NCBI GenBank assembly: GCA_947034885.2 | Contig: OX344757.2 | Location: forward strand, 4,526,001 to 4,590,000 | Reading direction: 5' to 3' | From: Thuidium tamariscinum | Lineage: Eukaryota; Streptophyta; Bryopsida; Hypnales; Thuidiaceae | DNA length: 64,000 bases | Part shown: in pieces, positions 22,585-63,200 of the stretch | Layout: every line of letters starts with the position of its first letter | Numbering within the stretch: position 1 is the first letter of the stretch | Notes under the pieces: model-generated | Told to the model about the DNA's origin: nothing | Databases searched by the model: none | The model's input: only the letters and a program-made list of their open reading frames with translations | Position numbers and translations under genes: made by a program

Positions 22585-22909
22585 CCTCACACATTTCTTT
22601 TAACGCAAACTCGTAATTCCTAAAGTTTGAAGTCCATTTTTCACCAAAACCTTTAAAATTTGACATCTTCAATGCAAACAATAAAAAATATTAAACTTAT
22701 TTTTTCATATATCCAATCATAGGATTTTGTAATAGACATGTATGAGAATATGTGGAAGAAATTTTAGAAACTTAACCACATCAATTACAAGATATAAGCA
22801 TTTAAAGTGAAGAAAACAAGTTTTTTTCATTCCTAGACAAACTAGATTATAAGGATTTCAATCCTTTCAATCCCTAAATGATCTTATGATCCTATCATCT
22901 TCTGTAAAG

Positions 22910-23746: not shown

Positions 23747-23896
23747 CTCTAAGGACACAATGGATATGGAACAAGCTCATACAACTTCATTATTTGTTGT
23801 GATTTTCTAAATGTTTTTATAGGAAAAAAAAAGTCCAAATTAGTTTAATTCAACAAGCATATAAAAATCTTCAAAAAAACTTCAAATATATTTTAA

Positions 23897-24821: not shown

Positions 24822-24825
24822 TTAA

Positions 24826-29113: not shown

Positions 29114-31068
29114 CTACAGCGTCACCTCGGGGCTCAAATCGTAAAAAATCTTGGCGTTCTCAAACGTCACGTTCTGCAACGGGAATCCGGCTTGCACAAT
29201 CGTGATGACGATCTGTTTCACGTAGTCTTTTCCCAGTTGCTTCAACTTGGGTCCGATGGCTACTCTCCAAACTCTCTTGGGGTTAACACTCGGCTGCCCA
29301 ACCACAGGAAGGAAGTTGAATGTGCCAACGAACTCAGGGCACGTGGGACCATTCGCCAAAGAAGCTCCAGGGAAGAACAGAAAAGCTTTCCAGTGGACTT
29401 GCCCCGATATGTCCGGAATGTGAAGCCCTGCAAGCTCAAGAACCTCCGTTCCTTTGGTTCGTTTGGTGCCTCGAGTAACCTTGAAAGTCACTGGAGCTGC
29501 GCCAATAATGTCGGAGCTTTTGTGCTTCGGGGTGGCAGCGATCAAGCTCAAGACTGAGGACTGGGAAAGGGGGTTGCATTGCGTGATCGTGTTCTCTTTG
29601 CCCGCCGCCACACCGTTCGTGATCCACGGAGCAGGTTGGCTCTGGTACTTATATCTACAAACGAACAATGTTACCTCAATCAGAACAACTCATCAAAGCA
29701 GTCCAGAAACTAAAACATAGCACGACAAGAGATCGATATCAAAAGTTTCACCGAAGATTGATGAACTCCTGACCTCAGCACTTCACGATATCGGCAGTTC
29801 TTACGGCAATCTAGACACTTCGACAATGCAATTTCAACAAAGATCGATATGAAATGTAATAACTATAGAAGAAATTTCTACTTACAAAAACGGCGCATAG
29901 GGCTTATTGGACCCATAATCTTAACACTGGAATGGAAAGATTTCAAAACAAAGAGTGTCTGGAAACTTTCTCGGAGATCAATTGTGTACCTGAGCTTATC
30001 AGTGTCAAGCACTTGAGACACATTGATCTTCACCAGACGCGCATTCTCATCGTAAAACGTGAACGCAGAGTTCAGAAACGCAGGATCCTTCGGGTACGTC
30101 CTCTCCCCACCCGGAATCGTTTGCCACACATTCCACAATCGATCCACGTTCGAGTGATGCGCGTAAAAGATAGGATCAATCGCGGCCCTTCCGAAGTGAC
30201 CCATGTCATCGAAAGGAATTCTCGGTGGGGGCGCATTCGGGTCCCCAACCCACGCATGCACTGTCCCGTGCGGCTGATCCTCGAACGTCCCAGGCCCGCG
30301 ACCTCCGAAGTCACCAAAGAAGTATGGCATTCCGTAGAACAAGCTCGTCGTCGGAGCCCCGACCACCAACTGCGTGTACTGCAACCGATCGTTCTGAACG
30401 CGAATGAAGTCAGAAGTCTTGGTAGTACACCCCCCAATCGTGTCTAGATCCACAAGAAACGGTGGGTACGAGCAGTTGTTCCGGTACAAATCGTACAGAG
30501 GTGATGTGGGTTTCGCGTACTGCGCTGGCATGGCATTTGGGACTGGAGTCACGTCCAGAGAGTTGTCCCACGCCCAGTATGAAAGCGCAAACGTATCGTC
30601 GTTCAGAACCTTCGCCAGAATGCGTTCATGAAAGTACAAGAACATGCGGTGCCACGGAAGAAACAACCAGCTGTTATGAATCGCCAGTGGGTACTTCTGT
30701 CCGGGGTAAAACAACGAATGGTCGCAGTACAAACAATGAAGCTTCATCTGGTTAAGGAGCGACCGAGGGTCGGAGTCAGGTAAGGCGCGGATGATCGAGT
30801 ACGCCTTCTCGATCTTGGCGATGTACTCCTTGCTGACAGTGTGAGCCGCCTGACGAGTGCGCACCGGGAGGTGCGACTCGAACTTGAATTGGTAAATCGG
30901 TGCACCGACGTAAGGTTTAGGCATGCAACATTTCTCAATGCTGTTGCACTGATTGGGCAAGTCGGGAGCTGGAATGGGACCGCCTTTCGCAGAAACGATC
31001 ACTACCAGGGTCATCGACATCACTAGAGCCGCAATCCACTTCATCGCGGAACCAGAAAACGCCCCCAT
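29114..31068 (-). CDS. PPO: Polyphenol oxidase (catechol oxidase/tyrosinase family), secreted type
   Basis: This is a type-3 copper enzyme that oxidises phenols to quinones with oxygen. The CDS joins exon 31068-29990 and exon 29654-29114, giving 539 residues. The intron 29989-29655 has GT and AG ends, and the junction reads DTDKLR|YKYQ. I chose the ATG at 31068; the open frame extends upstream without another ATG. Residues 1-27 form a signal peptide (hydrophobic core around 10-26, then a cut near SA|KG). Vascular-plant PPOs instead usually carry a thylakoid transit peptide. CuA ligands are H111, H131 and H140, with C115 placed for the Cys-His thioether (HCLYC, HNSW, PWHR). CuB ligands are H267, H271 and H305 (HGTVH, FYAHHSNVDRLW). 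The C-terminal domain after about residue 360 is the plant PPO shielding domain. It appears intact; the substrate is unknown. Confidence 0.95.
29655..29989 (-). other. Coding intron of the polyphenol oxidase gene (335 bp)
   Basis: The minus-strand donor is CTCAG|GTACAC and the acceptor TTTGTAG|ATATAAG. Splicing restores the frame between the CuB domain and the C-terminal domain. Without splicing the frame runs into a stop at 29878. Confidence 0.9.
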
Positions 31069-31085
31069 GACTGGCAACTCGGAAT

Positions 31086-31483
31086 CTAGAGAGAAAAGTT
31101 GATGACTCAAGTAAGAATTGCTATCTCGGCAAACCTGACATTTACAAAAGGCAATATTGAATGGTAGACTACAATGGCATCACCACTGAAATTCCAACCA
31201 GTCGACACTCTAGTTCACAATCAAGACATTCACAGACAAGTTCTGACTACAACGTCATCACCACCGTATCGATAACTACTCAGTACTCTAGTTCACAATC
31301 CTGAACTTTACTAAGAAATGTTGTTCGACAAATGTTATCACCACAGAACCGACAACCAATCTGTACTCCAGTTTAAAGCTCTGACAAGAAATTACAGAAG
31401 CGCCAGCGTCGTATATTAATAAAACAAGCAATTTCAAAGGCTGGAGAATTGAAGGATCCCGAGAAGTTTATACGCCCACTCAC
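31086..31483 (-). other. Probable 5'UTR intron of the polyphenol oxidase gene
   Basis: On the minus strand a consensus donor, GTTGCAG|GTGAGT, lies at 31484/31483. A pyrimidine-rich acceptor, TTCTCTCTAG|ATTCC, lies at 31086/31085, 17 bases before the chosen ATG. This predicts a leader exon of about 31484-31640. Confidence 0.6.
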
Positions 31484-35554: not shown

Positions 35555-36286
35555 GGATTGTTGCAAGAAACACCGTACAAAAAGCGTAGCGTTTTCAATA
35601 GTACTCCTTTTTTTTTGGGAGTACTTTAAAATTAGAAAAAAAAGTTTTAAAAAAAGTGAAAATTATGTTTCATGTATAAATCTTTAAGAAGAGGGTACCC
35701 TAGAAAGGAAAGGCATAGGAAAAATCTCTAAGTAGGAAATCCAGAAAAGTGCAAAATCTCATGAAAATTAGTATTTCCACATTTTAATTTGTAAAAAATA
35801 GGAAAATAAATTTTAAGAAAAACTAAAAAATTTCCATTTGAGGAAAGTTGATTTTTATGAGATTTGACTAAAAGAATGATCTTAGAACCATCATCAATGT
35901 TCAAAAATTGTGTGCCAAGGGAAAAAATTTGTACTCATGTGGAGGACATAAAAAAATATATTTTTAGATTTTTATTTGTAATTTATAGGTTTTACACCTA
36001 TGAAAATAGACCATGAAATTTTTGTCTTCAAATCATTAAATTTAGACACTACGAACGTAATGGTAACCATAAACGTATTTATGTGATAGCTCAATGAAAA
36101 TGTTTTTTAAATATAAAATGATTTTTTTTAATTTCTGAAAAATGAGGGATCTAATAAACTTCAAGTTAGGTATGTCCAATAAAAATTTCATGTTCATTGG
36201 ACTTAATCTCCAAAAGTTATAGTGGAAAACAAAAAAGTGGTTCGTGGTGTGACGCAAAATAGGACCGGTGTTTCTTGCAATGACCC
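35555..36286 (+). mobile_element. TIR element, family 1
   Basis: This 732-bp element has ends GGATTGTTGCAAG and CTTGCAATGACCC and a perfect 4-bp duplication CATA (35551-35554 and 36287-36290). Confidence 0.88.
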
Positions 36287-38031: not shown

Positions 38032-38755
38032 GGGGAAATGCAAGAAACACCTGCCGATTTTGTTGGGTTTGGCTGATTTTTTCGGGAGTACTTTAAAATT
38101 AGAAAATTAATTTGAAAAAAATTTGAAAAATATGAATAGTGTATATACCTCTAAGATGAAGGTTTTCACCAAAGGAAATGGATAGAAAAATTCTCTAAGT
38201 AGGAGAACTTAAAAAGTGCCAAACTTCCATAAAATACATACTTTCATGTTTTAATTAGGGAAAAATAGTAAAAATAGATATTTTTGAAAAATAAAAAGTG
38301 TCCATTTGCAACAACTTTATAGAGATGGTCATTCACAAAAAAAAAAAACCAAAATAATATTTTATATGTTTCAAAATACAAGCAAAAGGGAGCTCACTTT
38401 GTAGACCTCCACACCTCACAAAATTAACTTCTTAGGAAAATCCTTCCCTGGAGAGCTAGAAGTCTACTAGAAGACCATCTCATCCAAATTTCATGTTAAA
38501 ATCATTAAAAAAAGGTATAGCTCAGGTATAAAAAAAATCTAAACTGCGAAGTGTGACATCCAATTGGGGTCTATTTTTGGATAGTAAACTATTTTTGAAA
38601 ATTATGAAAAAATTATGGAAGTTTTTATGATAGTTATGAGTACCTTTCCTACGAATCTTGAGTCAATTGGAGCTAAAACACAAAAGTTATGGCTAAAAAC
38701 AAATCAGAATGCACCATGTGACACAAAATAGGACAAGTGTTTCTTGCAATCACCC
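38032..38755 (+). mobile_element. TIR element, family 1
   Basis: This 724-bp element has ends GGGGAAATGCAAG and CTTGCAATCACCC and a perfect 4-bp duplication TAGA (38028-38031 and 38756-38759). Confidence 0.88.
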
Positions 38756-38759
38756 TAGA

Positions 38760-41700
38760 ATCAAGTTTGAATGTTTTGGAAGTCAATCAAAAGTCAAAAC
38801 TTGATTTGATTCGTTTATGGAGAGCCAAATAGTCATGTAGTAAACAAATTTTCTGAAAGTTCAAGGTTTTATCAAATTCTAACTCCAAGGATTGGATTTT
38901 AAGAAGATTTTTGGAGTGATTTCTAAGGAACGTAAAAATTTGGAGTCAAACTTTGGTTGTTTACATTATTCATTGAAATTTTAAAGTTTTAAGAATCCTT
39001 ACCTAAGAATTCTAAAAAAATTCTCTCTTTTCAAAAAATCTTGAAAAAATTTGTTTGTATTAAAAGTGTTTTTACTAATGAGTTTGATTAAATCATGAAA
39101 ATGTCAAAAATTGCCTAAATAATTCTTTAAAATCATTTGAAACAAATATAAGACTTAAACTTCAACATGTCTAAATTTTGTTGGAAAAATCTATTTCTTC
39201 AATTAAATATGGCAATTTATAGAGTGTTCAAATATTTATTAGAGGCACTATAGATCTTAAGATGTCTTACATTATCTCTTTATGACCATTTTCTTTTTTC
39301 CCAATGACTACTATCAATTTAGGAATGCCTCATTTAACTACTCGGTTTTGGACTTTTAAAGGATCCATAATTGATAGTAGAAAAAAATGGTTATTAGGAG
39401 AGAATACAAAACATTGAAAGATGAATATTAGCCATCTAAAGATCTATACAAACATCTAGGGATCTCCAAATGTTATTATCTAGAGATTTCTCAATTGAAT
39501 ATTTTGACTAAAACTTATTCAGTATTCAAGAAACATATAGCTAAATGTGGCATAAGACTTTCAAAAGTAAAAAATAATTAAATGTGTCATACTACTATTT
39601 TTAGAATGTTTAGAATTATATATATTTTTGCAAAAAAATAAAAAATTTAATATCATATATTTCATTTTATTTTTTTAATATAAAAAATTGAACCTTGGAT
39701 ATGTATTATTACATTAAAAAATTTGAAAGCTAAAAAAGTGTATTTTTAACAATAAATAATTAATGAAGTTTGACCAATGGGTAGAAATATTCATTTTAAA
39801 ATTTTGGGTCACTATACTAAATCAAATTAATCAAAATATCCTATGGTTGAGTTTGTTGAAAAATAATATTTCATAAAGATTTCAACCTTGCTTTGGGGAC
39901 AAGTATTTTAAAACAATTTTGACCTCTAAACATGTTGGTCCTTTAGTGGTAACTAAAATATCCTGGCATGCAATTAAATCTTATATCATTTAAGTTTGAA
40001 AGTGTTTGTACTCAAAATGGGACATGTCATATTTGAAAACATCTTAGTTAAACAATATTTGAAATACAAATATTAGCTGTAATTATATTTTTGTATGTAA
40101 TGTTTAATTGCCACGTCTTCAAAATGGGTTGTAACAAAACTGTGCCTATAAATCAACTCTTGACATTGAAAAATAAATATAAAGCCTTAAGTTAAAATTA
40201 GACTCTCCCAAAATGGATGCTTTAAAATTAATTGGTATAGAGCACTAGATCCTCAATTTTGTATCATGCAAGGAAATGAGGTGTAAAAAACACCACATTT
40301 TCATTGATCAAAAGTACATATTGTTGAACATATAGGCTTCAATCTAATCAATGGAATTAATAGCATATTTAAAAAAGATAGTTACCGTGATGTTTTAATC
40401 TTGAATCTAAAAGGTTTAATTTGGATTAAAGATATAGAAAAATATGTTTGTTTAAGAAAAAAGGTGTTGAAAGAATGCATTAACAATGTAGACAACTAAT
40501 AAGGTAGGAGGTTCATAAATAGAGTATCTAAGGGATGGACCTCAATTTTGGAAAGGTGAAACATTTTGAAATATTTTCCAATAAATTTTCCTTAAAAAAA
40601 GTAAAATTGTCTGTCAATCCAAGTTGTTTCATATTTTGTTAGAGCTTTGTAGAATTATTTATAAAAATTTTGAAGTTCAAGTGGCAAAGGGCTCTAATAT
40701 AGAGCACTTCCTAAAACAAACACATTTTGTACATTGTTGAAGGCTATGAATAAACAACATGTACAAACAGTGCACATTTAAAGAGGTATCCTATTGTAGA
40801 GCCCACTCCCTTTTAGAACCTCCTACTAAGTTAGTGAAATCTAGATGACATTTGAAAAGTAATTTACAAGTAAAACAATACTATACCACTTCTTTATCTT
40901 GCGTTGGTTTAAGACATATAAATAAAAAGTATGAGGCTCTGGCTTAGGTAAACAACACTATGAATTTATTAATCCATTAAACTCCCAACATCTCCATTCT
41001 AACCAAATTCTTACCAAATTCAAATATGGATGCAATTGTAGATAGGATTTGGAAATTTGGATTTAGAAACTAACACTTGATGGCATAGTTTATGTATACA
41101 TTTAGTAAATACACTATTTTTTTAAATTTGTAAAATTATAGTAGATGATCTAAAATCGTCCAAAATGATATAATGTAGATATAATTATTTGTCGATAACA
41201 ATATTTTCATAGAAAAAAACAAAGACATTACACAAAAAGTGGAGTATTCACATATACATCTTGCTTTTGAATACCGTGTTGTTTAAAGGTATATACAAAA
41301 GCAAAGGTAAAAAAATCACCATTTCTAGAAGTCAACAAACAAAAACAATTTACTTTTCCTTCTTTTAATTTACTTAACCAAAAAAAAGGTTGATAAAAAA
41401 ATTAAAAAATATTCTTTCTAATAAAAAAAATAATATCAAAAACAAAAAATAGCTAAAGTTTTACTTTTACTATTAGGGACAAAATGAATTTTGGACAAGT
41501 CCTTACAAAAGCAATTTTTGGTAATCAAATTTTTTTATTATTAAGAAAAAACTTATTAACTTCCCGTAATAATATTTTTTAATTTTGATTCATAACCAAG
41601 AGCAAAATCTATACCACAACACGTCCAAATTTCAATTTAGAAGGCAACAAAAAAAATCTATAATTTTTTTTTGAAAGTAATTTAAAAAAACTGTTTATAA

Positions 41701-45600: not shown

Positions 45601-48160
45601 CAACCATTTATTTGGAGAATCAATGTAGATGATTTTAGTATACTAGGATTTTATATTAAAAAAATTTATTTTGTTTTTTGAAAATACAATGAATATTTTA
45701 TTGACTATTGGAATTCAAAAAAATATACAATAAACCAAGAGAAAAATTTGTAGTTAAAGTTGGTTGTTATTCATCTTTTAAATTCTAAAGTCCCACGGTC
45801 ATTTTTCATCAAAATTCACTCAAAATTGTCATTTGTATTGCATAGAATAAAAAATTAAAAAATCAGTCTTCATATCTTACCGAAGGATCATGCACTAGAC
45901 TAGTATAAAAACTTGTATAACTTTTTTTGGAAACTATGACCACATATTGCAAGATATATTTGTATTTAAGGTGAAGAAATAAAAAAAATTTGGTGTCTTT
46001 TGTGCCTAAAGTTGATAAGACTTAAAATTAATCCTATTAACTTTGAATATTGTACCACAAAGTTTGAAGTAGCAAACATTATAATGGTTGAAAATTTAGT
46101 TGAGAACCTAGAAAAAAATTCAAAAAATACACACTTAATTTTCATTTCTAAAAAAATTGTTAAGTTGAATTAAGTACAAAATAGAGGGAAAAACTTAATT
46201 TTTAATTTCTCTATGATGAAATTGAAATGTACTACTTCAAAAGGTGAGATAATTCTAAAAAGCAAATCAAACCTTGTTAGATTTTTTTTTTGAAAATTCT
46301 AACATTGAGTTCAAAAAAGAATCTAATACATTATTTCCAAAACAAATTTAATAATTGCTAACAAATCAATAAGCTCCGTAAATTTTGTAAGACTAATTCA
46401 AATGTAATGGATCAAGTTTTTATATGTAGATGAAAATATAATTTGTGAACAAAAATATATAATTTATTTCAAAAAAATTATCATTCAACTATCATTAAAA
46501 ATTTCCTATATAATCATCTATATCATTAAACTATAATATGTAGGCTACTCTAAAACTCTAAGTCTATGAAATCACACCTTCATCCACTAATTTGGAGTTT
46601 CATCTTGTAACTTTGACGTACAAGTACTATACTATAAGTCTGACATAGTACTATACTATAATTTCGACATAGTACAAACAGACCTTACTAAATACAATTC
46701 CTTGGATCCAATTTTCTTGCCCCTAAATTACATGTACCTAAAAATTAATGAACCATATTTTTTGGCTACCTACATTACTTATAATGGACTTGCTATTTTT
46801 CATGTCCCCTACTTTATATGTAATTTTTTTTTATAAATACTTATAAATATTATCCAAAATGAATTAAATCCACCTTCTATTCCCTCACATGTGGATTGCT
46901 AAAGTATGGGAAGTGTCCCCCCTTCATTGAAGTTTGAGTGTAGTCAAAATTTGGAAAAATAAATAAATTGAGGCTTTGTTACTCTCCATAGTCTACACTG
47001 TCAATGATGCCCATTAAAGATTGAAAACTTTGAGACTCCATTTTTGGCTAGGGAAATCTAAATAGGAAAAATTCAATCCATGTAATTAAGGTTGCACTCA
47101 TTTGAAAATTTTAAAAAAATGGTTTTCAAAATAGATTGTCTTACTATAGGGAATATATACACAACAGAACAACAAATTCAAATAAGTATAAAGTATTGAA
47201 AGCTACAATGATTGTGGAGATGAGTTAATCACATGCAACAACGAATAAAGCAAATTCCATTGGAAGTAATCAATGTTAAAGGTTAAATTTTCCTTTTTTA
47301 CCAAACTTTGGTTTAACATGTAGCTTCTTCACAATTCTAAACAAAAACATTCAACAAGTAATTATTGCAAAAGTCATAATAGAATTCTTTCAACTTTCAT
47401 CTCAATGAAGGCCCCGGGTAGATCACTCTTTGTATATTTCATACCCCCCCGTGCGGCGAGGGGGTATTTTTTGGGGGGCTATTTACCTCAAAAGCCCAAA
47501 TAAATGGTCCCCTATAATTACATAATTTGGAAATATGTCCTATATTATAACATCCTATATTACTTATATTATGTAGGTGAGAGCTTTTTTTCTAGGGTAT
47601 TTTCTTTATAAGGAAAAAAAGTGAATTGGGGAGAAAGTTAAAAGGAAGAAGGTAAGAGAGAGGACCAAGAAAATTTCCAAAAAAAGTCAAGATATTTCCT
47701 TGGCTCAATATTCTTTTTCATTGTCACACCTTTTTTTGGTATACACAATTTTGTCAAGTAAACCAAAACTAATGGCAATGTTACCACTTACAAGACATAA
47801 AAATCCAAGAACTGAATGTACAAGAACTGCAATGCATGAAAACACAGTTTGACAATGCAAGAGAAGGAAACAATACATTGACAAAAATTGCAATGCATTG
47901 AAAAAATAGAGAATGTAATCCATGTGTTCAAAACAAGAATGAATCCACTAAAATGAACAAAAGGCACTGTCTTTCACATGCCATAGAAGAATGGTGCACA
48001 AATACTATTCAATGTCATGAAAAAAAAACAGAAAAAAAAACATGTGCTCAGAATAGGTCATTCACAAATGCAAATGCTCAAGAAATATTGAGATACACTA
48101 CAACCTCATCAAAAATTGTTCATGCATTCATATGCATTGAACTGCCCCAAAACTAGCCTC
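42613..48160. other. AT-rich region, no gene seen
   Basis: About 5.5 kb with only short frames. Points of structure: a GC-richer patch at 44090-44240 with GACGAAGTCGTTGAAGTCGA; a GC palindrome at about 47440-47480 (CCCCCC, GCGGCGAGG, GGGGG); and a duplicated TAGTACTATACTATAA word at 46625-46675. Confidence 0.4.
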
Positions 48161-48655
48161 CTATCTCAGTAATGGTGTGATCCAAACACCAGAATTGCCC
48201 GTGCTACCACCAACATGAGAAACTACAAACTCTGTTGACCACCCTGATCTGAGGCACCTTTGTAGCTCAATGAGCTCTTCTATGTCCAACTCAGCAAATG
48301 AAGAAGAACTCAGGTGAGGTGCCATCTCCACCTGCAAAACCCAAGACTGAGAAAACAAAGCCAAATTCTCGTCCACGCTCTGAATCTTCACGGGCTTCTG
48401 ATGAGGCGCTCCGTGAACATGGTGTTGAGCCAGCTTGCAAGCTACAAACTCTGGAGTCTTTACCACCACATCCCGAATTCTGTGGTTTACACCTGCACAG
48501 CGTAAGAAAACATCTAGTGCTGCCACCCGTTGTACATTTGTGATTTGGAGGGCTTCCTAACCACGTGCAGGCTGAAATCTTAGCCCCGACCATAGCACGA
48601 GACACTCTAGCACTTGGAGTGTAGTTTCAAGTGTGTCTTTCATCTGCTCTGCCAT
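48161..48655 (-). pseudogene. Candidate exon or gene relic of unknown function
   Basis: On the minus strand an ATG at 48655 opens a frame that reads MAEQMKDTLETTLQ, meets TAG at 48559-48557 after 32 codons, then continues in frame for 132 codons to a stop at 48161. An acceptor-like TTCACAG lies just upstream of the ATG. The sequence is amphipathic and of balanced composition, more protein-like than other frames here. It has no motif I recognise. The TAG may be a nonsense mutation, or the acceptor GTGGTTAG may start a new exon there. An 81-codon frame on the opposite strand overlaps it, so the coding strand is uncertain. Confidence 0.3.
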
Positions 48656-49541
48656 TTCAAACCTGAAGCCTGTGAATGGCAGCACGAAAGTTAGGTTAGC
48701 ATATACGGTACTTCAAAACACAATTCTCGACAACTGGGCGGAAGGCAATAGGTAGCAAGTCTTTTTTGTCATTTCAATGATAAACAAAAACAACATCAGC
48801 ACTCTTCTAGCACCTGATCTCTAGCAACCCTAAGAAAATTTGCAATCAGGATACACAGTTTGGGATTTAACTTCGACAATGCAGGTTGTAAAGTTCTTTC
48901 AACCTATTGAAATGGACTGAAAAAGCAAAGTTGAAAAATGAAAAAACCAGCCTACTAGCAGTGAGGTTTAGGTCGTCTCCAAATCAATCCCACAAGAAAA
49001 ACAAAAGCACATACAAACCAATTCATCAAATCTTACTTGGGCAAGAAGATGGGAAACGAGGCACCGAAGGAGCTTATTTGCCAACGGAGCCACAAGCAGT
49101 GTCTATAGAATACCTGCTCGGCCACTACACATGCAAGAAAAAGAATCAGAAATTACGGAATTCCTGCATCCTACTTCAACAAGAACAATAGCATTGTCAA
49201 ATTCGAAAGTGATCACACGCCTTGCTGCAGATCCACGCACCCAAAACGGAGAACGAATACAACAAAATCCAAAAGTGCAGCAACCTACAGCAACGCGCAC
49301 ATGGAAAGCAAATGACGTACCCAAGTGTGATTCCAAGCGCACCTGTACGTGAGACGATCCTAGGCGGCCCAAATTTGTGCACGCAACCTGCAGCTGCGAC
49401 ATCAATGCGACGCAATTCTCAATTTGCGAGTTCAGAGTCCGCGGAATGCACAGAAGGTTTAGGGTTCGGTCAACACGAAACGAACACGAGAATGGAAACC
49501 CTACAAAGAGAAAGAGTACGCTAAAATTGAAATTCACAAAC

Positions 49542-49712
49542 CTGGTACGCGGTCGAGGCGCTCCAACGAAGAATCGCAATGTCACCGCGCAAGCAAGGTG
49601 TGCCACTGCGCCTTCCGCTGATACACAATTCACACAAATCCAGGCAGCCGAGCGTAATGACGGCCTGACACGCAAGGAAAAATGAAGCCCAGCTTGATCG
49701 CCTGGCGTCCAT
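49542..49712 (-). CDS. Candidate first exon, hydrophobic leader, unknown protein
   Basis: An ATG at 49712 starts a 57-codon frame (MDARRSSWASFFLACQAVIT and on) ending at a plausible donor CCAG|GTTTGT at 49541. A hydrophobic stretch at residues 8-25 could be a signal anchor. The DNA around 49000-49800 is clearly less AT-rich than the neighbourhood, consistent with a gene body. I could not link it to a downstream exon, so this is tentative. It might belong with 48161-48655. Confidence 0.2.
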
Positions 49713-50396
49713 TTGAAGGAAACAAGAGAAATTCAATCTGCTGCAAAACCCTAAAGTCACAGGGTCATTTCGAATTCAGACAAGGCGAGTTGACAAGGCA
49801 GTGATTTGGAGACGACAACCTGCAAAACTTTTGGGATGAGAATCTCACAAAATCCTCATGATATCACTTCTAGCAGCCATTCCAGATATAAAAATGCTCA
49901 CTTTTCAAATCAGAATCTTACCAGCAGTTTTCGGGATTCACCTAATGGATTTGTGACATTACCCAATTACAACAACTCATATCAACAACGAAGGAATTCA
50001 TTAAGCAAGTAATAAGACTCAAAACCAAGTGAGGATTTGCATGAATTACAGTGACAAAAAAAAAATCTTTAGTGCACTAAGGAGGTCTCCATCGTCCAAT
50101 CCATTCGAAGTCAAACCACAACTATTTCCTCTGTTGTGATTCTTCAAGGAGAATTTGACATTTGAGCTTAGTGCACTCACTTTACAGATGTGTACACCAA
50201 GGCCACGCTGCACTCCAGAACATTTGATTCAAAGAAATACTCCAGTAGTTTTCAATCTACATTAGCAATGAGAGAAGCATCCAATCAAGAATTAGTACAT
50301 AATTCTTGGAAAAAAAATTTCAAGAGCAAAACACAACTTTTCAAGAGCAAAACAGAAATTTTCAAGAGCAAACCTTCACATCCTTTGCAGTTGGAT

Positions 50397-53300
50397 TCAA
50401 GCCTTTCGACTGTTGACAAAGTCATTCAACTCTCGGGAATCATTGCTGTCCAGAGAATAAACTTCATTGACAGGGTTGTATGTCATGGTAACTGTACAAA
50501 TGATGTAGTCTATATCAATCCACTTGCTGTCCGTGTGGTCATATTTGAATTTGTCTCTCCCAACATGTTTACAGTAGTACTGCAGGAGGACTTTGATGTG
50601 CAGATTCTGCGGCATGGATTTCCCATTTTCTTCCATTCTTGCTAAAAGGTCTACAAGCTATCTTAGTATGCCAAATTGTCGTCCATTGCAACACCTCATT
50701 GCTTGAACCCTACCCAACCACCATGCACCTTCATCTACAGCATTCAAAACATTAGTAGCACTGCCATCCCTACTAGCACTAGTTGCACGTTCTCTTTTCC
50801 TCTTAGCAGCAGATCTTACCGTTGAAGATAAGCGCGTCATGCTCCTCTGAATGAAGTGTACGCCACAGTCTGATCCAAGACACAACAGACCTGTACCAGA
50901 TGACAAGCCAACTTAGATACAATTGTCATGGTTGTTGAATTTAATGCTTTGCTTGATTCTAGCAAGGCGATCTTTGGAGAGGAAGCTGTTCCCATTCAGC
51001 TCAAAAACAATTGTGGATTTATACATACAATGGCCCTCTATTTGCACAGTTGGTTCAATTTTAACATTGGATCCGCTCTTAGTGGAAGTCACTTGTGCCT
51101 CAGTGCGATTTAGCAAATCCGTGATTGCATCACGAGTTTCTTCTTGTACGACTGCCAAATAATTTTCAGCATCATCTAGACTAGCATCTTCAACAGTATC
51201 CCTCATTTGGGGAGTACTTGAGCCGCTTAAGTCATTTGGTCCTTGCACTTGCAGTCTGTCACGCAATACTTCAGAGTCTCCATCCTCTCCAAACACAGCT
51301 CTTCCGCTTGGACTGTAAGCAAAACTCTTTGGATCAGATCTCTCTACAACCCAAGGCTTATCATATCAAATCCACTTTTTCGCTTGGCATTGAATAAATG
51401 GCGCCATATTGAGGACTCACATCATCTGCTGCGCTTCCTTCAGTCCCTCCTACAACGCCTCTACTACCGAATCATTATCTGGAATCAAGCTGTAGTCGCC
51501 CAAATTGCATCGCACCTCACCTGGTTGCAGCGGGTGAAGGGCTTCCCAGACATTGTCCATCTTGTTGTGTTGCTTTTTAAAAGCCTAACCGTTTTGTCCA
51601 TACTCAATTGCTGACATGAGGTTCAAGGTATTTGCCGTATTCAGCAACTCATGGAAATCATAAGCATGCTCATGGTCGTTCATGCCACCAATTCGTGAGA
51701 AAAAAATTTCGCATGAATCACTCCCAGTCAAATGGAGAGGAACCGCTAAATCTGGAAACCTGTCTCTGAAATGGCAGATCAAGAGAACAACAAAATGGCA
51801 CGAGATTTGGATATCAAGAAAACATTGCAAACTTACAAAATGTTTGGCCTCCACCAGTTTCTGAGAGTTTCCCAGTACACCATGATCTCTATGGTGCAGC
51901 CAAAGTCTCCAAATTCGAAAAAAGAAAGACACCTTGCCACACAAGACAATTCTAGAACGAAGGTCCAATTGAGCTGAACAGAAAATGTCAATGTAGTCAG
52001 AGCATATCTGCAAATAAAACTCTGTTCCAAGCGTTCTCTCCCGATGTGAGTAATCTACTTCTCGCATGTGGGCCAAACAGGAACGAACTCGAGCTTGACA
52101 CAACCTTTGTACTGCTGCCCAGTTCTGGCGGTCTTTTCTTTCAACGTCTTCCATTTTTAAGCCATGTTCCTTGGCTGTGAATTGCTGAAACACCTGCTCA
52201 ATGTAACTATGCAAACACAAATCTCCTCCTAGTTGTAAAGTTCTAGCAACTGAGAGCAAAGGGTTAATTAATTTTTTCCCGTTGTGAATATAATCTTGAT
52301 CATGCAGTCCACTAGCATTCCCGTGTTTATCTAAGGATGCATTGAACATCCACCCATTCCACCCTAAGTCAAGACGGATTCCAACGTCACTCTTGTAATC
52401 TTGTTGCATTAACTGCCTCCTACGGGAATCTCCATCACTTACATGACCAATGATTGGCCCAACCGCACTCAAACAATCCATTGTCCAATGCTTATCAATC
52501 GTTCCCCACTGATGTCGAACCCAAACTGAGTTGAAACAATTGCATGTACAACAAGCAACAAGTACAAGACGTGGCAATTTATCATGAAGAGGATTGACAA
52601 CAATTATGCGCGCAAAACTGCCAGCTCTGTTCTTTGAAAAGGAATCTAACAATCGCTGGTATCCTTCCTCTCCACTCCCGACAATTGGCCTGAAACTCGA
52701 AACACAAACATTGTTCTCAGATGGACCACAAAACCCGGCTAACGTATCTGACCTCTGTTCCCATGCAACTCTACCCTTCACTTTAGTTTCGTCTTCAACT
52801 AGTATTACAGGCACAGGACCTGCAATGTTGTGTGCGACCTTTGCAACACGGTAAATCTTTGCCACTGATGCAAAAATTTCGGAGTGCTCACCAGCTATGA
52901 ACTGCACTCCTTTGCTAACATCACGTTTTACTTCACTATAGCTAGCGCCTCCAAAATTCAAAGAAAATAAATCAACCATGCGACGACCACCATAAACCTT
53001 CATTACTTGCCCTAGACATTTTGTATTCTTGCTGTAGCGGTTCCCTGTGGAAGCTCGGTTTATATTTTGTGCAACATCCCGAAGGAAATCCCACAAAGCA
53101 GGCTTCCCACCAAAAGCCCCTAATCTATAAGCGTTGATGATACTATGGCAGAGTTTCATGACATTATTTGTATTCGAAGCTTCCCTAGCCAATTCACGCA
53201 GACTTGGCCGCTTAACTTTCAGTTGAACAATCCTAGCACGAGCTGAAAGGTACATCAATTTCTCATCTTTCAATTTCCTACGCATTTCACGACCATGCTG

Positions 53301-54875
53301 TGCTAGTTCTGAAACGGTCAAGTAACCGAGTCTCCTTCCTGCCCCGATGCTACGAGTCCCCTTTTTCTCTACATTGTGTTCTTCCCTTACAACCCTCTTT
53401 CGAAAGTCATTTTGCAATGGAATTTCGGAGCACATAGAGCATGCCAAATTAGGAAAACCAGACCCGAAATTATCCACCCTAAAACAGGACTTGTGCCTAA
53501 ATGTTCCATCAATCTCGATTGCTTCACCATTCTTAGTGAAGCTTGCGCTAACGTGTGGTTTCGGATACCAAACCCCTCCCGCATGCGGATCATGAAGAAT
53601 TTCACGGACAGAATAAGAACCCCCCCCATAAATGGTAGTCAGACCCCTGAACCCCCAACACAAGAATGCCAAACTTGAATTTCTATCCAAGGCAGAAGAC
53701 TCACCCGGATGAGTTTGATCTTGAACAGAATCTGCCTTCCACCATCTCCCAAGACTTGGCTGGTTCGAGTGGACACTAACCGCAGATGAGAAACTAGGCC
53801 GCCCTCTTCTTCCGCTCAGAAGTGCACTGTTCTGCTTCGGTGGTTGATTTGCTTCTTCCACAGCTTGTAAATGCTTTGATGATGCTAAGTGATTTCGCAA
53901 ATTTGACTCCAAATTCTTCTTCGGCAGGCATAGACAAAGCAAATCTCAACAATAAAAGCATCGCACCTTCACCCAAAAACTCTTTGGAGCAGAGTCCTTG
54001 AACGACTGCAAGACACTGAAAGGCTTTCGTGATTCCCCTGCACTGCCATTCACTTCTTCCATAATGGCAAGTCCTTCGTCTATGAGTTTCTTGTGCATCT
54101 CCGGAGTCAATGGAATGACCTTCCCCTTTGAAGCAGCAAACTGAGGGTGGTCAGCGTACTGAACGTCGTTGTGAGCACACCAATTCTTCACGTGGTTTGC
54201 ACTCAAGAGGTGCTTGGATTTGAAATTGTTGAACAAATTCTGAATGCTTTTTTTGTCATGTTTGCCACTGTCCCCACCAATCTCCTTCTGGCACTCAACA
54301 CAAAAGATCTTCATGACTCCATTTCCGTTCAAATCAGAGGTCCTCAGCAACCATCGATTGTCTTCCTGTGATGAGCATTTCAAATCCCTCTTCATTTTCT
54401 CTGACTGCTCAAGGTATCGCTCCCATACCTCTGTGGAAATCAACGTAGAATGCAACTGGTGGTCACTCGAATTTGTAACAAGGGATGATCCAGTAATTCT
54501 AGAGCTTCCAACAGGATCTGTAAGTTGCACATCCGGTTCTCCATCTCCACCACAACAAACCCCATCTACAACTCCTGTCGTGAGACCAATATTTCCATCT
54601 TCCACACGCCTACGTTTGTAGGCTTCTGGATCTTCAACACACATTGGCAATACATAAACATCCGAAACCACATTGTTCAATGCCTCCATCTTCAGCTTTA
54701 AGTGGCAACGGTCTTCGTAGTCCCAGAACTCAAAAGACCAATCCATTGCACCTTTTTCCTCCAAACGCACCCTCAGCAAAGCATATGTTTCATCTTGGAG
54801 TACCTTCACCTTACTGAAAAAGATAGGAGTCGCATTATCAGTCTCCATCGTCCAAATCTTGACTTGATTTGCCAT
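50397..54875 (-). pseudogene. Degenerate DDE-transposase-like gene, one frame with seven stops
   Basis: From the ATG at 54875 a single frame runs 1,493 codons to a stop at 50397, broken by in-frame stops at 53946, 51585, 51450, 51417, 51366, 50913 and 50658 (lowest base) but by no frameshift. Order along the protein: an N-terminal globular domain (1-80); a C2H2-like zinc finger (C192, C195, H222, H228); a second finger (C306, C309, H329, H335) with the first stop just after C309; a basic GRRGRPS motif near 355; then a transposase-like core. Candidate acidic residues in the core are D695 (VEDETKVKG), D814 (SDGDSRRR), the DQDYIHNGKK motif near 860, and E1056 (SDSCEIFFS). The last 300 residues contain FLSKDRLARI and a DSKWIDIDYI motif. 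The pattern around D695 recalls P-element/THAP9-type RNase H folds, but the superfamily is my inference. No terminal inverted repeats were found. Almost certainly non-functional unless stops are read through. Confidence 0.7.
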
Positions 54876-55400
54876 AGTTGCTAACTGTGAACCGTATCCG
54901 AAGCCCAATGCTTTGAATAAGAAATCAGGAAGAAATCAGGAAGAAACCCTAAATCGCACAGTCCAAATGAAACCCTAAACACCTAACAGAACTGCTTGGA
55001 ATGATAATGAATTCCTGAAATTTTGCTCACGATGTTGAACAAGTAAAGCTCCACGCACTCCTAAATGTTGGAACCCTAACATTCACCTCCGACAAACAAT
55101 GCAAACCTCCAAAATCGAGAGTAACGTAGGGAGACTCAGGTCGCAACACAAGGAGACTCACAGATTGCAACAGCAACATTGTGGAACCCTAACTCCGTCG
55201 AAGCTTGAACGGGATCTCCGTCTGTTTCTTCTATTTTCATCCATCGAAGCTATACTAGCAGTCTAGTACAGCACAGCTGTACTAATTATTTTGTACTCTA
55301 CATCCAGCTACTAATATTGTATACCAATATTCTGACTACTTTGTATTCTACAACCAGCTCTAAATACAACTGACCCTAATAAAAGCAATTTTGAGGATCC
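54876..55400 (-). promoter_or_regulatory. Leader/promoter region of the transposase-like gene with telo-boxes
   Basis: Upstream of the ATG on the minus strand lie several AAACCCTAA-type telo-boxes, read on the plus strand, at about 54945, 54971, 55071 and 55190. In plants such boxes are common in promoters and leaders of housekeeping genes. Composition falls to AT-rich beyond about 55400. No TATA box was chosen. Confidence 0.35.
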
Positions 55401-56811
55401 TAATCTTTAGTCCTTAAATTATATGTAAAATTTTTTAATACTTTACATTTTTTAGCTACCTATTTTACTTATAATGCATCTTTCACTTTGAAAGTGCCCT
55501 ATTTTATTTGTAAGTCCCTTATAAATTTTACCTTCAAACAATAAAACCCATGCTATATTATGCTGCACGTGGTTTTTAAAACGCGGGAAGTGATCTACCC
55601 TAGATCCCGCCCTAGATGAAGGCATTTTATTAAATATACTTCAAAAAATCCACTAGTTTTTCTATTTGATTGAATGGATTGATGTACAATCAAAACCTTT
55701 TCATTCACTCTATTTTGATTAACTCCATAATTTCTAAAAGTTCCAAATATAACCTTTGAGGACAATTTAAAGTTTTGTTCAACTCCTAAAATTTCAATTT
55801 TTGGCATAATTTATTGAAAGTTTTTTTAAGATAGGAAAATATATTAGCTTTCAAGACATATAATTTCTTTTTTTTAAACCATATACATTAACAAAACTCT
55901 TTTGCTAAACTTAGATCAAAATTTTTGATAACAAAAGAAATCACAAAAATTTGAAATAATTTTTCAAAAACCATTATTTCTTATATTTTACACCTTTGCA
56001 CATATATGGTACAGTTGATTCATTTCATTAGTTGGTTGCAATCACTCTTGAGAGTATGGTGGTAGCCTTGACATTAGTCCCTTGTAGCATGGTCTTTGCA
56101 ATGAAAATGTAAGGGAGTTTCTAAGGAATTCCAAATTATTGCAACACTAAGCTTTGATATGCCATGCATGACATTGAATTTGGAGTTGACATCAAAGATG
56201 GTTGGAATGCTTTCAATGTGTGATTAATTAGTGATTATCTAAATTCTAATAAATAAAACATTCTTACTCTTATAATTGGCAATAATCAAATATGAAGCAA
56301 ACTTAGATTTTATAAATGTAATTAAACAAATTTAGATTTGAAGAAATTTTCCAGCTTTCAAAGATCAAAATTACACCATAATTATATTTTTATATCATTG
56401 TATAAAATATTGCAAGTCTAGTGATGTGTGTAAACTTTAAAGGGATGCACAAATTATATGAAGCAATAGTTGTAGTTGCACTTGTCTAGATACATTTCAT
56501 ATCTTTGATTAAGTGGCATCATGATTTCATGGTCATCTTGTTGCTTTATTTCATGGTTAGTTGTTTGGCCTCATGACCAAGTCATATCTAAATGATTCTT
56601 CATATTTGATGCACTCTATAAATATATATCACTAAGTGGATAAACTAGTTTTGACCTAAAGGTTATCATTGGAATTCAACACCTAAAATTCTTCCAAATT
56701 TAAGGGCTAAAACACCTCTCTAGAACCTAAAATTGTTCTAAGCATAATGCAAAGAAAAATTATGTGTATCAAACTATTAGATCATTTAGCTAATCAGTGG
56801 AATCATATTTC
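55401..56811. other. AT-rich spacer, no gene seen
   Basis: No coding frame above 70 codons and no recognised repeat. Confidence 0.4.
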
Positions 56812-56815: not shown

Positions 56816-57763
56816 CCCCTAAAGGTTTTTGACTATGTTTTCACCAAAAATGCTCCAAAACTGCCATTTCTTAGACAAGTGCAACTTTTTTTTTTAAAAC
56901 ACATTTTTGACTCATGTAACCATAGGATCTTGTAGTAAGGTATTTTGTAAACATGTGGAAAAAATTTCAAAAATTTTCACCGTGTAGATTGCAAGATATA
57001 AACATTTGAATTGACAAAAATTGTTTTTTTATCCCTGCGAAAATCCGGGCAGCTGCACTTCACAAGGTCACATTTGTGTGAAAAAAAACTCAAAATGGTG
57101 GTTACTCTTTGAATTCATACTTCAATGCAAGTTGGCTACATTCTCAAAAAACTTCAAACCATTTGGAATTGTACAACATATAGGAAAAAATAAGTAAGTA
57201 GAAAGAAGTAAAAAGTGAGCCAAAATACTAAATTGTGAACATTTTATTTATGGAATTGAAAATTTTCAATCCCAATGGTTAAAATGTTGTAATAAACAAT
57301 CTACACCTTTTGTTTTTATTTTTTTACAAAAATATGAAAAATTGAATTAAATGAAGAATTTCAAACATTTTTTTGTACTGTAGAGATTCTGTAACTAGCC
57401 CCAAACTACCCCAAACTCAAAATCTTCATAACTTTTGACTCATTGATCGGAATGGATTGTTTCAAAGCTTCCCATGTTTGTATAAACCTAAAGAACCAAT
57501 TTGAAATTTCACTTTTAAAAAAAAAGTTTTTTTGAAGAAGTTTTTTCAGCTGCCCGGGCTGCCCGCTGAGTAAAGTAAACAACATATCCTGCCATAACTT
57601 TTTAACCGTGAAGTCAAAAGTTATGAGAATTGTTGGACCTTAAAGCTACTCCTTGGGCATAAATTGTATCAAAATTTCAAAGCAAAAAAAAAAAAAACTC
57701 CATCCGTAGTGAGCTGCCCAAAAAAATTATAATCTCAAAAAACTCTGTTCAGGGCTTTAGGGG
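56816..57763 (+). mobile_element. TTAA-flanked TIR element, family 2, copy C
   Basis: A 948-bp element has TTAA at 56812-56815 and 57764-57767. The left end CCCCTAAAGGTTTTTGAC and the right end, inverted, CCCCTAAAGCCCTGAAC are terminal repeats. It is colinear and highly similar to copy A (1821-2752), including GCCCGGGCTGCCCG. It also shows the uninterrupted site into which family 1 inserted in copy B. Confidence 0.88.
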
Positions 57764-57767
57764 TTAA

Positions 57768-59498
57768 AATTGCAAAGTGAAAACCAATCAATTGGAAGAT
57801 AACAATTTTCAAACTTCAATGACCAAGTTTTACTACAAGTTGTCTTTGCTAAATTCAAAATTCATTCTTTCAAATACTTTTAGGAAAAAAATTCATAAAT
57901 TGCATAACTTGAACAATTTCATAATATAGTGTAGAATTTTATTGGAAATCCTTAGAAAAATCCATTTAAAAATATTATTTACAAATGACTCTTGAGTGTA
58001 GAAGAGTACCTATACTAAATGTCTAAAGAAATAACTTTTTAATTTCTTTTATTAACATGGAATTGGAATATATTAATTCACATAGTTGAAATTTTTAGCA
58101 AGTTATATATAGCTTACAAACCTATTCTTCTTTTACAAAAAGTTGTGAAAATTGACATAAAATAAAACCATTATAAGTTTTACAAAAACCATTATTTAAA
58201 GTTAGCTTTTACAATTCCTAATTTTTCTTGCAAAATAAACCCCTCTATATTTTTTGCCTTTAGTTATTCATAAATGTCAAATAATAGACCCATCTGATAT
58301 AAATTTTGAAAAAACTATTTTTAATTAATTTTACAAAAAACAAAAAATATTTCTCAAACCTTTAATTGAAAGTTTTTGTACCACTTTTAGTTCTTGTACC
58401 AAATCATTTTTTTGACATAGATCATATCTTTATTGAATTTATCTAATAAACTCAAATTCAATAAATGAAGTATAGGGAAGTATAAAGATTTGTATAGAAT
58501 CAATATAAGATTGAAGAAATTATAAAAACCTTTTGAAATGAAATAATTTTGATTTTTTTAACCTATTTTTCAATAGAAAAAGATTATTTTTTAATCTAAG
58601 AAGTATTAATATTTTTCTAATTTTTTCAAAAATTATAGAAATCAATTCATTATAAGGGTCAAATTAGTATTTTTTTTCTTAGAGATGTATAGATTTACTA
58701 TGTGGAATTATTTTTTGAAGGGACAATGTTTAAGAAGACCAAATGTAGAAATTTTTATTTGTTAATGGTCAATTGAATTTTTCCCTAATTTACTTAGCAT
58801 TATTTTGACTTTATCTATATGATCTCATTTTAGAGCTAAATAGATATAAACTCCAATAGAAACATAAGAAGTAAAATAAATAATTTTTTTAAAAAGAAAA
58901 CCTTTTAATTTTGTTTTCACACTTATATATTTAATATTTGTACATTGTTAATTAAAAATTCATAATAAATAAAATATAGCTTATGCATAAAATTCTATAA
59001 GGATTGTGTTCTATTAAATATACGCTATTCAAGTAGTTTCAATGAAGCATATAAATGTATTCTTCCTTATATAAGAAAGCAATATGTTTTATAAGTGTGG
59101 AAAATTTTGATTTTTTTTAAAGGTACATTAGATATTGTATTATGCAGAAGTTGGTTCTTATGTAATCCAAATGCATTGCTTAAGTAGAGTGAACAACAAT
59201 GTATAAGGCATAAATATAACTTGCTTTATTTCCCACACCTTGTTAGCACAACCACCCTAATTAATTTTGTTGTTGAACCTTTCAAGTTTTTATCTTTGTC
59301 CAAAAATTCCTTATAAAATTCTTTTGGCTACTTATTTAATAATGAAATTTTCTTTTAAGGATTAAGTCAACTTGTGCAAGAATTTAAATATTGCAAGTTC
59401 AAAAAGTCTAAATATTATCTTTAGGAGCTAATTTCTAAGTACTTTGACACTTGTATTATGAATGATGAATAGAATGCTTTTTGTCAATGTTTAGCTAA
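57768..59498. other. AT-rich spacer, no gene seen
   Basis: No coding signal. Extensive A and T runs. Confidence 0.4.
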
Positions 59499-59501
59499 AA
59501 T

Positions 59502-59709
59502 CACTAAAAGAAAACTGCATTGAATTCCATAAAAATGCGTCAGATTGTTTTTGTTGAGTTCCCTGTTCAAAACGCAGTGGAAACGCAAAAAATGCAGGAA
59601 AATGCAAAAAACTGCATTTCTTTTGCGTTTCCACTGTGTTTTGAACAAGGAACTCAACAAAAACAATTTGACGTGTTTTTATGAAATTCAACGCAATTTT
59701 CTTCTAGTG
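59502..59709. mobile_element. CACTA-type MITE, palindromic, 208 bp
   Basis: It begins CACTAAAAGAAAACTGC and ends with the inverse of CACTAGAAGAAAATTGC. The two halves are inverted copies over nearly the whole length (GTTCAAAACGCAGTGGAAAC against its complement with few changes). AAT flanks both sides (59499-59501 and 59710-59712), the 3-bp duplication expected of CACTA elements. No coding capacity. Confidence 0.9.
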
Positions 59710-59712
59710 AAT

Positions 59713-60240
59713 ATGGCTTATTGTTAATCTTGAGTTTTATAAGAATGACCTTTCTTTATGATCAATTTTATTGGAGTTATAGTCAACAATACATCATCTA
59801 CTATTTACTCTTTGAATATTGAGAATTGCAAGAGAAGAACCCTAAACTATAACTTTGCTTAACCTATCCATGCAACGTACCTATGGTTTAGCTTAATTAT
59901 GGTACATTTTCTAGCGTGACTTCGATCATAACGAAGTGTTTGTGTGTAAAGATTGAGATCTTGCCGAATACAAGCTACATTTGTGTCAGTGTTGCTACTA
60001 GGCACATTGATTAAAAACAAGATATAAGCAAAAATAAGCAAAAATGTGCAAAAATGTGCAAAAATCCACAAAAGATCCGAGTGATAGAGGTTAAGGCGGG
60101 TACACTTGATGACGTGGAATAAATAGCTGATCTGGATATAGTTCGCACCCAGGTGGCAATCACCAGCTCGCACTTCTTGGTTTCAAAAAGGTCGTCTCTT
60201 GCCAACTTCATTTTCGTTTCCAGAAGGTTTTTCGCGCACC
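59713..60240 (+). promoter_or_regulatory. Upstream region and candidate promoter of the RsmH-like gene
   Basis: An ACGTGG (G-box-like) word at about 60112-60117 is followed by a TATA-like ATAAATAG at about 60118-60125, some 115 bases before the ATG. A run of AAAATGTGCAA-type repeats lies at 60030-60065. Confidence 0.35.
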
Positions 60241-63200
60241 ATGCATCTGCTGGGGTGCAGCAATGGCGTCCACCGCTCGCACCTCACAACCCTAGCTCAC
60301 CATTTTCTCACGCGAACATCTCTTCCTCGACCTGTCCTGCACGTTCCCTCATTCTCTCAGAATCTCGCTTCAAACGGTATCAGATTCGCAAAAGGAGATG
60401 GTGTTTGCGCATTGCAGGATTTTGTGAGCTCCAGGAAGTGGTTCAATTTTAGGGCTGTTCCTGTACCACTATGGCGAGCTTGCAGTGCCGTTTGCAGGAC
60501 AGCAGCTGCAGGGGAAGAGGAAAAAGAAGAAGAGAAGGATGCGAAAGAGGCGCCACATGTGGCTGTGCTGTTGAAGGAAGTAGTGGCTCAATTCACGGGT
60601 CGTCGGGTGATTTCTTTCGTGGATTGTACCTTGGGAGCTGCAGGCCATGCTTCAGTGGTGGGAATTCAATACAATTTTTTTATCAATTCTGTTGGTTATG
60701 AACATTGCGATGTGGTTGTGTGAATTTGTCTGTTCTGTAATGTAGCCATGAACTCTGGAAGCTGAATTACGATGTTAGGTTTATCAAGAATGCCTGACGA
60801 TTAGTGCCGAATTGACGACCGAAGGATGCCTAGGATTGAGATTTGTGCTCTCCATGAGGAAATTTGAGGATTGAGATTCAAGACTGAACTAAGCAAGGAT
60901 GATGTAGTGCATATGTCGTGATTGTGACATTGCATTTCATTTAGGGTTTAGGGTTTAGGGTTGGAAGCTTGAAGGAGTATCTTACTCTGGCTATCAGGTT
61001 GGAACACACTCCCGTGGGTTTTACCGGTTCCTATTATCAGAATGGCTTACGTTTTTGGTGGGTGTAGACTCCATTTTCTGGAGGGTTGAGTACTCTTTTT
61101 TCCAATTCTGTTGGGTGCGGACATTGGGATGTGGTTGGTGAATTCTTCTGGTCTGGAATGTAGCCATGAGTTCTGGAACCTGTGTCGGGTTTAGCATTAA
61201 TGGCCGGCGATTACTACCGAATTGGCGACCTTAGGATGCACAGGTGCGAGGTTTCTGTCTTTCGCAGGGAATACTGTTGCCTTGAGATTCAAGACTGAAT
61301 ACAGAAACGAGGTTGTTATGCATCCGTCGTAATTATTACATTACATTTAGGGTTGGATGCTTGAAGCAGTCTCGTACTCTGATTATTAGGTCGGAACCCA
61401 TTCCCGTGATTTGGAGTGGTTTACTTTACTAGAATGGATTATGTTTATGGTCGGTGTTGGCTCCATTTTCCGGAGGATTCTAACGCAATAATTTAAGCCG
61501 TATATGAATACTGCACGAATAGGTTATGGATTTTGAAGCAAGGTCTCAATTATGAGCCCAGACCACCCTTGAACCATGATTATTGGATCTCATAAGAACA
61601 GTTTTGACTGACGGAGAATGTAAAAGTCTTCTTTCTTGCAATGCACGTGTTTGGATGCTCTTGCATTGGAGTTCGGTGAATTTGATCAGGGACACCAGGC
61701 AGAATGGCATGGTTCCCTACCTTATTCGTTGACTGGAACGTGCAAGATTTGATTAGGCCAAATGCATGTGTTATTTACCTTGACAAAATTCATTTAATTC
61801 TTCTAATGCGAAGTTTTGTTATGCAGATTCTCCGAGAGCATCCCGAAATTGAAACCTTTCTAGGGCTTGATGTGGACCCAGTAGCACATAGAGAATCCAA
61901 GCCTCGACTTCAGCAGAGGGCGGCGTCCAACGTGCAGCTGCACTTAGTCCTCACGAACTTTCGGAATATCAAGAAGGCAGTCAGTGATATTGATGTGAAG
62001 TTGGCTGGGGAGGGAGTGAACGGCATTCTCATGGACTTGGGCATGTCTTCCATGCAGGTGGGGTTATTGATCATCAAACCTCGTCTCTGCAATGTATGTG
62101 TAGGGAACCCATTCTTGTGGCTTTCAGCTGTTTTGAGTGGTTTCCGCTCAAAAATGAATTTTTTGTTGGTCTCGTCCCACATATAGTGGATTTCAATACA
62201 CTGAAATATGCATGATGTGGATACTGTATGATAAGAAGCTTTGAATCTCTGATGATGTCTGTTAATGGTTATGAAATTTGAAAGCTTGTTTGCATAAGCA
62301 GTCACTGTGCATATCAACTCACAGTGTGCGGCAGTGGGTTGTTGCTAGTCATAGAGGGTCATTACTTGTTGAAGTTTAACTCTTTATGGAACAGGCGGTT
62401 AAACACAAATATGTCCCAAGCGCACAGAATCTTGATTTTCTTCTCAAGCACAGAAATATGTCCGTAGTTTCTTGTGTTAGTTCTCTTTCTTATAATTGTA
62501 TTGTGTAGATTTTCCAAAATTTTCTTTGCAATTATTTTACTAATCAAGGTCTAAAAGCATGATTCACCTCAATAAAGTTATTTTCCCAGTTCATAAAGGG
62601 ACCATTAAAAAACGACTTGAGTAAGTAAAATCGAATCTTGGAAATCACCATGATTAGAACGATTTCAACTTGCAGCAAAAGAATTTTTTGAAAATCACAA
62701 ATATTCATTCTACAATCAATTTAGGAGGAATTTCCAATTTTTCGTTTCAAACTTCTATTGAAAAATATAGGTTGGTGTAGTCGATCTAAGCAGATGCATA
62801 TGATCTATGAATCTTATTTTACATTTCTATTTGAAAGTTATCATTAAATTATTCTTTGAAGTTGTATGTAATTATATATCTTCACAATTTTGGAAATATG
62901 GATGACCCTCTGGTGGTTAAGGGGTTAAATAGTAAGGTCCCAATCACGAGCTTAGACTACACTTGAACCATGAATATTACATATGTGATATATCTCTTGG
63001 AAACATCTAATTTCTTACAAATTATGTGCTTTTGTGAGTTCCATGTCAGTACCAGCGCTGTTGTGATTTTGAATTGGTGCTCTTTCTGTGTGATAGACGT
63101 CTTGCCTTTTATCGACTTAAGGTTGACGGTATTTTTCATCAAGTAGTTTTGACTGACTAACTGGAGCTACAGGTGAATGTGGCAGGCAGGGGTTTCAGCT

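Follow-up and report, generated by a model that had tools for sequence, protein, structure and literature searches.

A probable dead copy of a transposase gene with a predicted P-element-type core retains one reading frame across seven stops in the moss Thuidium tamariscinum

RESULTS

Here, we describe a broken transposase gene of the moss Thuidium tamariscinum, located in a 64,000-nucleotide stretch of contig OX344757.2 (assembly GCA_947034885.2, forward-strand positions 4,526,001 to 4,590,000) to which we refer as the window. The gene occupies positions 50397..54875 on the minus strand and keeps a single frame over 4,479 bases, or 1,493 codons, interrupted by seven internal stops; it is colinear with stop-free relatives, and the model of its central part predicts a P-element-type fold with conserved acidic residues. 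The stops leave three parts, all on the minus strand: (i) an N-terminal open piece of 309 codons (53949..54875), which ends at the first stop (53948-53946); (ii) a middle open piece of 786 codons (51588..53945) with a predicted RNase H-like, P-type catalytic core; and (iii) a C-terminal part (50400..51587), which bears the other six stops (51587-51585, 51452-51450, 51419-51417, 51368-51366, 50915-50913, and 50660-50658) and precedes the terminal stop at 50399-50397. All three stop codons are present among the in-frame stops, and the other five frames over the same bases contain 52, 53, 73, 83, and 114 stops. The lowest coordinate of each internal stop is exactly the position listed in a first-pass annotation made from the sequence alone. 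The N-terminal piece carries Cys/His motifs that, judged by eye, resemble zinc fingers, and has no Pfam match at cut-off; Rfam and tRNA scans gave no match.

A search with the middle piece returned 36 relatives (43 to 73% identity), and a profile search returned 90 proteins of the family, five of which (P0037 to P0041) are full length, with 1,423 to 1,530 amino acids, and have sense codons throughout. In tblastn, each of these five aligned in frame -3 as a single match that spans all seven stops and reaches 50406 or 50403; residue 1 of P0037 falls on base 54875, and the match of P0040 begins only at 54464. Because these relatives match unbroken across the stops, we are dealing with one intronless gene, broken by stops only, and the earlier claim that all open pieces share one minus-strand frame stands. 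The accompanying claim of zero indels is borne out only for frame-changing indels and not for multiples of three, since 8 to 19 gap openings of the latter kind, not assignable to a branch, separate the gene from its five full-length relatives (46 to 50% identity). Family members also revealed no hidden frameshift by tblastn: among 103 matches from 93 members, just one lies outside frame -3, and this match of 22 columns is the frameshifted tail of P0002 itself. A GT...AG-like stretch of the middle piece was considered as an intron and rejected, as relatives retain it as protein.

The organism-named matches of the profile search come exclusively from liverworts, including gene models of Riccia sorocarpa (9 proteins) and Calypogeia fissa (1), and the bryophyte relatives are annotated as hypothetical, uncharacterized, unnamed, or, in one case, as a C2H2-domain protein, with no more specific label. 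No match in a pattern search of genome contigs (68 matches) and viral contigs (119 matches) encodes a relative, and tblastn (E up to 0.01) found no second copy of the gene within the window.

The middle piece of 786 amino acids was modeled with a predicted local distance difference test (pLDDT) score of 83.7 from an alignment of 81 sequences; an earlier model from 37 sequences was poor (pLDDT 52.3). The predicted fold is RNase H-like, carries the acidic triad D, D, E, and is interrupted by a mostly helical domain. In the model, and in the numbering of the middle piece, D385 lies within strand 380-388, D504 right after strand 498-503, and E746 within helix 743-752. These residues, all intact here, are conserved in 76/76, 73/75, and 51/51 relatives, respectively, and are probably the catalytic ones; the available part of a review (PMC7776569) gives D230, D303, and E531 for the P element transposase. 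Among solved folds, the nearest to the model is that of the P element transposase, with other DDE folds well behind. The model and the conserved triad thus support the view that the gene encoded a large transposase whose catalytic core was of the P-element type, refining the "transposase-like" label of the first-pass annotation to a P-type fold.

Sequence profiles alone did not reveal this identity. Among 44 family members scanned, none matched the Pfam P-group models PF21787 and PF12017 at their own cut-offs; sub-threshold signals occurred in 4 members (best E 0.044) and 2 members (best E 0.061), respectively, and are traces at most, given that unrelated families reach E values of 0.0033 and 0.0045 in the same scan. 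Neither the N-terminal piece nor full-length P0037, P0038, and P0040 matched the THAP domain at E up to 1, and a profile search of Protein Data Bank (PDB) sequences gave three chance-level matches only (E 0.48 or worse). The search for terminal inverted repeats and an 8-bp target-site duplication found no pair above control regions, and the ends may be decayed or lie outside the searched stretch. For a 15-base pattern found near each flank, 20 of 100 shuffles do equally well, which is chance level.

Relatives carry differing residues at the seven stop positions, and a single C-to-T or G-to-A change is possible at no more than five of them. Two stops point to transversions, although for one of them the residue of P0044, a lone distant relative, is compatible with C-to-T. 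If so made, the five candidate stops fall in two CG, two CHG, and one CHH contexts; the probability of at least five such stops is 0.03 at a kappa of 1.7 and 0.25 at a kappa of 4. At 484 sites of nearest-clade agreement, we counted 40 changes on the branch of this copy, of which 13 are unambiguous C-to-T or G-to-A, 3 the reverse, and 15 transversions, with 6 ambiguous and 3 multi-step changes set aside in the tests. The 13:3 excess has P = 0.011 against 1:1 and P = 0.17 against 2:1, the latter being approximately the expectation from AT-directed mutation alone as estimated from base composition. Of the 13, eight are in CG or CHG contexts, as read from present-day neighbors, compared to 28% of opportunities (P = 0.012).

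Changes to residues absent from outgroups number 22 of the 40, or 4.5% of sites; the corresponding rate is 2.0 to 2.1% in four relatives and 4.3 to 7.4%, equal to or higher than here, in P0006, P0010, P0014, and P0018, which may be dead too. At strictly invariant sites, this copy departs at 8/202 and other relatives at 0/164 to 20/191, so that these departures by themselves are no distinguishing mark. From the excess of about 2.5%, we estimate by hand some 75 to 100 substitutions since death. This number predicts 3.5 to 4.4 stops, with a probability of 0.07 to 0.16 for seven or more, and the absence of any frameshift then has P = 0.001 to 0.005 at 15 substitutions per frameshifting indel and 0.08 to 0.14 at 40.

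As a control, we used two AT-rich repeat families of the window, with 8 copies (535-1217, 13487-14205, 21851-22587, 35581-36286, 14964-15666, 38039-38763, 25875-26485, and 8200-8630) and 6 copies (56837-57771, 1841-2760, 23892-24825, 8779-9222, 9924-10450, and 16098-16675). Their C-to-T rates, based on the 54 of 80 C-to-T or G-to-A changes with known context, are 0.208 in CG (5/24), 0.161 in CHG (9/56), and 0.049 in CHH (40/818), with P = 1e-4. Per GC site, C-to-T is about 2.6 times as frequent as the reverse per AT site, and 200 of 383 repeat changes are transversions. A methylation-type signature is thus present in this moss genome as part of a broad spectrum, and the transposase gene is alike. 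More generally, diverged copies of two or more repeat families form a mosaic in the AT-rich spacers, and C-to-T in these copies is 3 to 4 times commoner at CG and CHG than at CHH.

The repeats also indicate how odd the lack of frameshifts is. We compared 53 repeat pairs, which share copies and hence are not independent, after removing pairs that overlapped, touched any of three coding stretches, or had fewer than 150 columns. They differ by 4,806 substitutions and by 332 indels whose length is not a multiple of three (14.5:1), whereas eleven hand-picked pairs in another alignment gave 942 to 35 (27:1). Single bases account for 197 of 374 repeat indels, and AT-rich repeats may be more slippage-prone than coding sequence. 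With about 4.4% of random substitutions in the gene creating a stop, the probability that seven of seven lesions are nonsense is 0.0016 at 15 and 0.019 at 30 substitutions per frameshifting indel. A second view comes from 18 family fragments of at least about 45% identity, each on a contig longer than 20 kb, with more distant hits, named liverwort gene models, and full-length P0040 excluded. Of these fragments, 12 end without an unaligned tail, as expected for a stop, 3 with one residue, and 3 with three to five. With tail lengths copied by hand and 7% of frameshifts assumed to leave no tail, the nonsense share is about 0.64, which yields P of about 0.045 for seven of seven; 12 of 18 itself has P = 0.045 at 15:1. 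We consider seven stops without a frameshift unusual, not extraordinary. The earlier proposal of decay dominated by substitution is therefore borne out by the seven nonsense and zero frameshift lesions and by the stop-like ends of the relatives' fragments, and its premise that indels are to be expected in such a gene as well is qualitatively correct but weaker than it seems, with P between 0.0016 and 0.045 depending on the rate.

Beside the transposase gene, 48100-49800 is GC-richer and skewed, with minus-strand open pieces of 131 and 209 codons that have no Pfam match. A direct repeat (46677-46823 and 55368-55513; 71% over 150 columns) flanks the region and may belong to the element's surroundings or represent an ancient repeat of the host. 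Elsewhere, a polyphenol oxidase (PPO) gene on the minus strand (29114-31179) comprises two open stretches, with the Pfam domains Tyrosinase and PPO1_DWL in one and PPO1_KFDV in the other; its best named relatives are from Ceratodon purpureus (62 to 63%) and Physcomitrium patens (49%), and the nearest match overall reaches 87%. RsmH/MraW-like exons lie on the plus strand at 60142-62186, with Methyltransf_5 in both pieces and, between them, a diverged direct duplication of about 400 bases (60677-61087 and 61096-61479). The window further contains an inverted repeat at 59493-59718, with 98-nt arms that are 88% complementary and 30 nt apart, and a young inverted pair (3796-4237 and 4406-4847) that is 96% identical over 442 bases and indel-free.

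DISCUSSION

Our analysis suggests that the locus probably represents a dead bryophyte transposon copy whose gene encoded a P-type transposase and which is decaying by ordinary, substitution-rich mutation with a contribution from methylation. The C-terminal part has a similarity to the full-length set of 0.42, compared to 0.43 to 0.53 in nine other members—the lowest of ten, narrowly—and being nearly as similar as theirs, it was constrained until recently and its loss is recent. Plant transposons are usually silenced by DNA methylation, and the copy, presumably functional until recently, may have been silenced in this way. Thereafter, it would have gathered substitutions by the host's normal mutation process, which appears to be substitution-rich, AT-directed, raised at CG and CHG cytosines, and about half transversions. 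The missing frameshift would then owe something to luck and something to frame-changing indels arising at a low rate in the family.

Several observations weigh against this explanation. At the repeats' own indel rate (14.5:1), seven stops with zero frameshifts have a probability of about 0.002. The stops are also uneven, with the final 397 codons holding six of the seven (P = 0.002, at a split selected post hoc; P = 0.04 in a longest-gap test). Moreover, the end of P0001, on a 167-kb contig, coincides exactly with the stop of this copy at codon 1321 (50915-50913), and that of P0014, on a 3.8-kb contig whose end may be the cause, with the stop of this copy at codon 1142; neutral decay gives no prediction of these coincident ends, which could reflect recurrent mutation, shared descent, or chance. 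The 4.5% of outgroup-unseen changes is no proof of death on its own, because four relatives reach 4.3 to 7.4%. Finally, with neither terminal repeats nor a target-site duplication found, it is from the protein and the large number of relatives that we infer mobility.

A bolder reading, which we regard as doubtful, is that mosses and liverworts harbor a large, unnamed, THAP-less family of P-type transposons whose copies die mainly by substitution guided by CG and CHG methylation, as a mild plant counterpart of fungal repeat-induced point mutation (RIP); dead copies would then retain their frame yet fill with stops. A rival explanation for the present copy is that a methylation-guided C-to-T process, RIP-like or by deamination alone, killed it and made essentially all its stops and hence no frameshifts. 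The 13:3 excess and its CG/CHG bias fit this view, as do up to five stops, four of them CG or CHG, but we find it unlikely: 15 transversions and two transversion-type stops do not belong to such a process, the silent repeats show the same mixture of classes, and even with C-to-T and G-to-A changes only, seven of seven nonsense lesions have P = 0.008 at 15 substitutions per frameshifting indel. RIP-type decay, in which nearly all changes are C-to-T or G-to-A, was not found, and deamination alone is rejected by the number of transversions. The first-pass suggestion of methylated-cytosine deamination thus holds as a contribution only.

The middle piece might instead be a still-working shorter protein, domesticated or a repressor, with decay at the ends only. 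Its 786 open codons do include the complete catalytic core and its D, D, E residues, six of the seven stops lie beyond it, and P0001 ends at the codon of one of them. We nevertheless consider this decidedly improbable, because the C-terminal loss is recent and the middle is not better preserved, with 6/132 strict-site departures compared to 1/41 in the C-terminal and 1/29 in the N-terminal part. It is harder still to believe that sequencing or assembly error at modified cytosines placed false stops in an intact gene. Base errors linked to modification are a reported problem of nanopore reads, and the C-to-T/G-to-A class fits up to five stops, but two stops and 15 other changes fall outside this class, and exons of the host that encode PPO and RsmH domains show open frames. 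A changed code, RNA editing, or programmed stop suppression would let the full protein be made and could account for the frame being kept across 1,493 codons and for the modest level of missense change, yet this is scarcely credible: the five full-length relatives use sense codons throughout, and no single reassignment fits because all three stop codons occur and the relatives' residues there vary. Stops within spliced-out introns, an outcome that the first-pass annotation said would refute its reading, found no support and have next to no chance given the unbroken alignment of five relatives over every one of them.

Under the explanation of an ordinarily decayed transposon copy, the stop pattern alone is an ordinary death certificate, and the identity of the family is more useful: a divergent bryophyte P-type transposase family outside Pfam coverage, with full-length, stop-free members. 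It is the more interesting because a 2022 review of land-plant transposons (PMC9033089), in its available part, counts six terminal inverted repeat superfamilies in plants and mentions the P element for Drosophila only. In the accessible text of PMC7466625, "p element" occurs 0 times, and we found no report of P-type transposons in bryophytes by title or abstract opening, in a literature search whose coverage leaves out most subscription journals. If confirmed, P-like transposons without THAP extend to land plants, and many dead copies could gauge the effect of methylation on decay in mosses.

Compared with known systems, the moss protein, from a gene of 1,493 codons, shares 12 to 13% identity with the P element transposase of Drosophila (PDB 6pe2 and 6p5a). 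A GTP-binding insertion domain is a mark of the P superfamily; the moss model has a predicted helical insertion, by itself no sign of GTP binding. RAG1 and Transib transposases match the model far more weakly than the P element does, and so do hAT transposases (Hermes). Animal P elements and the THAP9 group carry an N-terminal THAP domain, whereas the moss N-terminal piece and the three full-length relatives scanned have no THAP match; according to the available part of the review cited above (PMC7776569), THAP domains are confined to animals.
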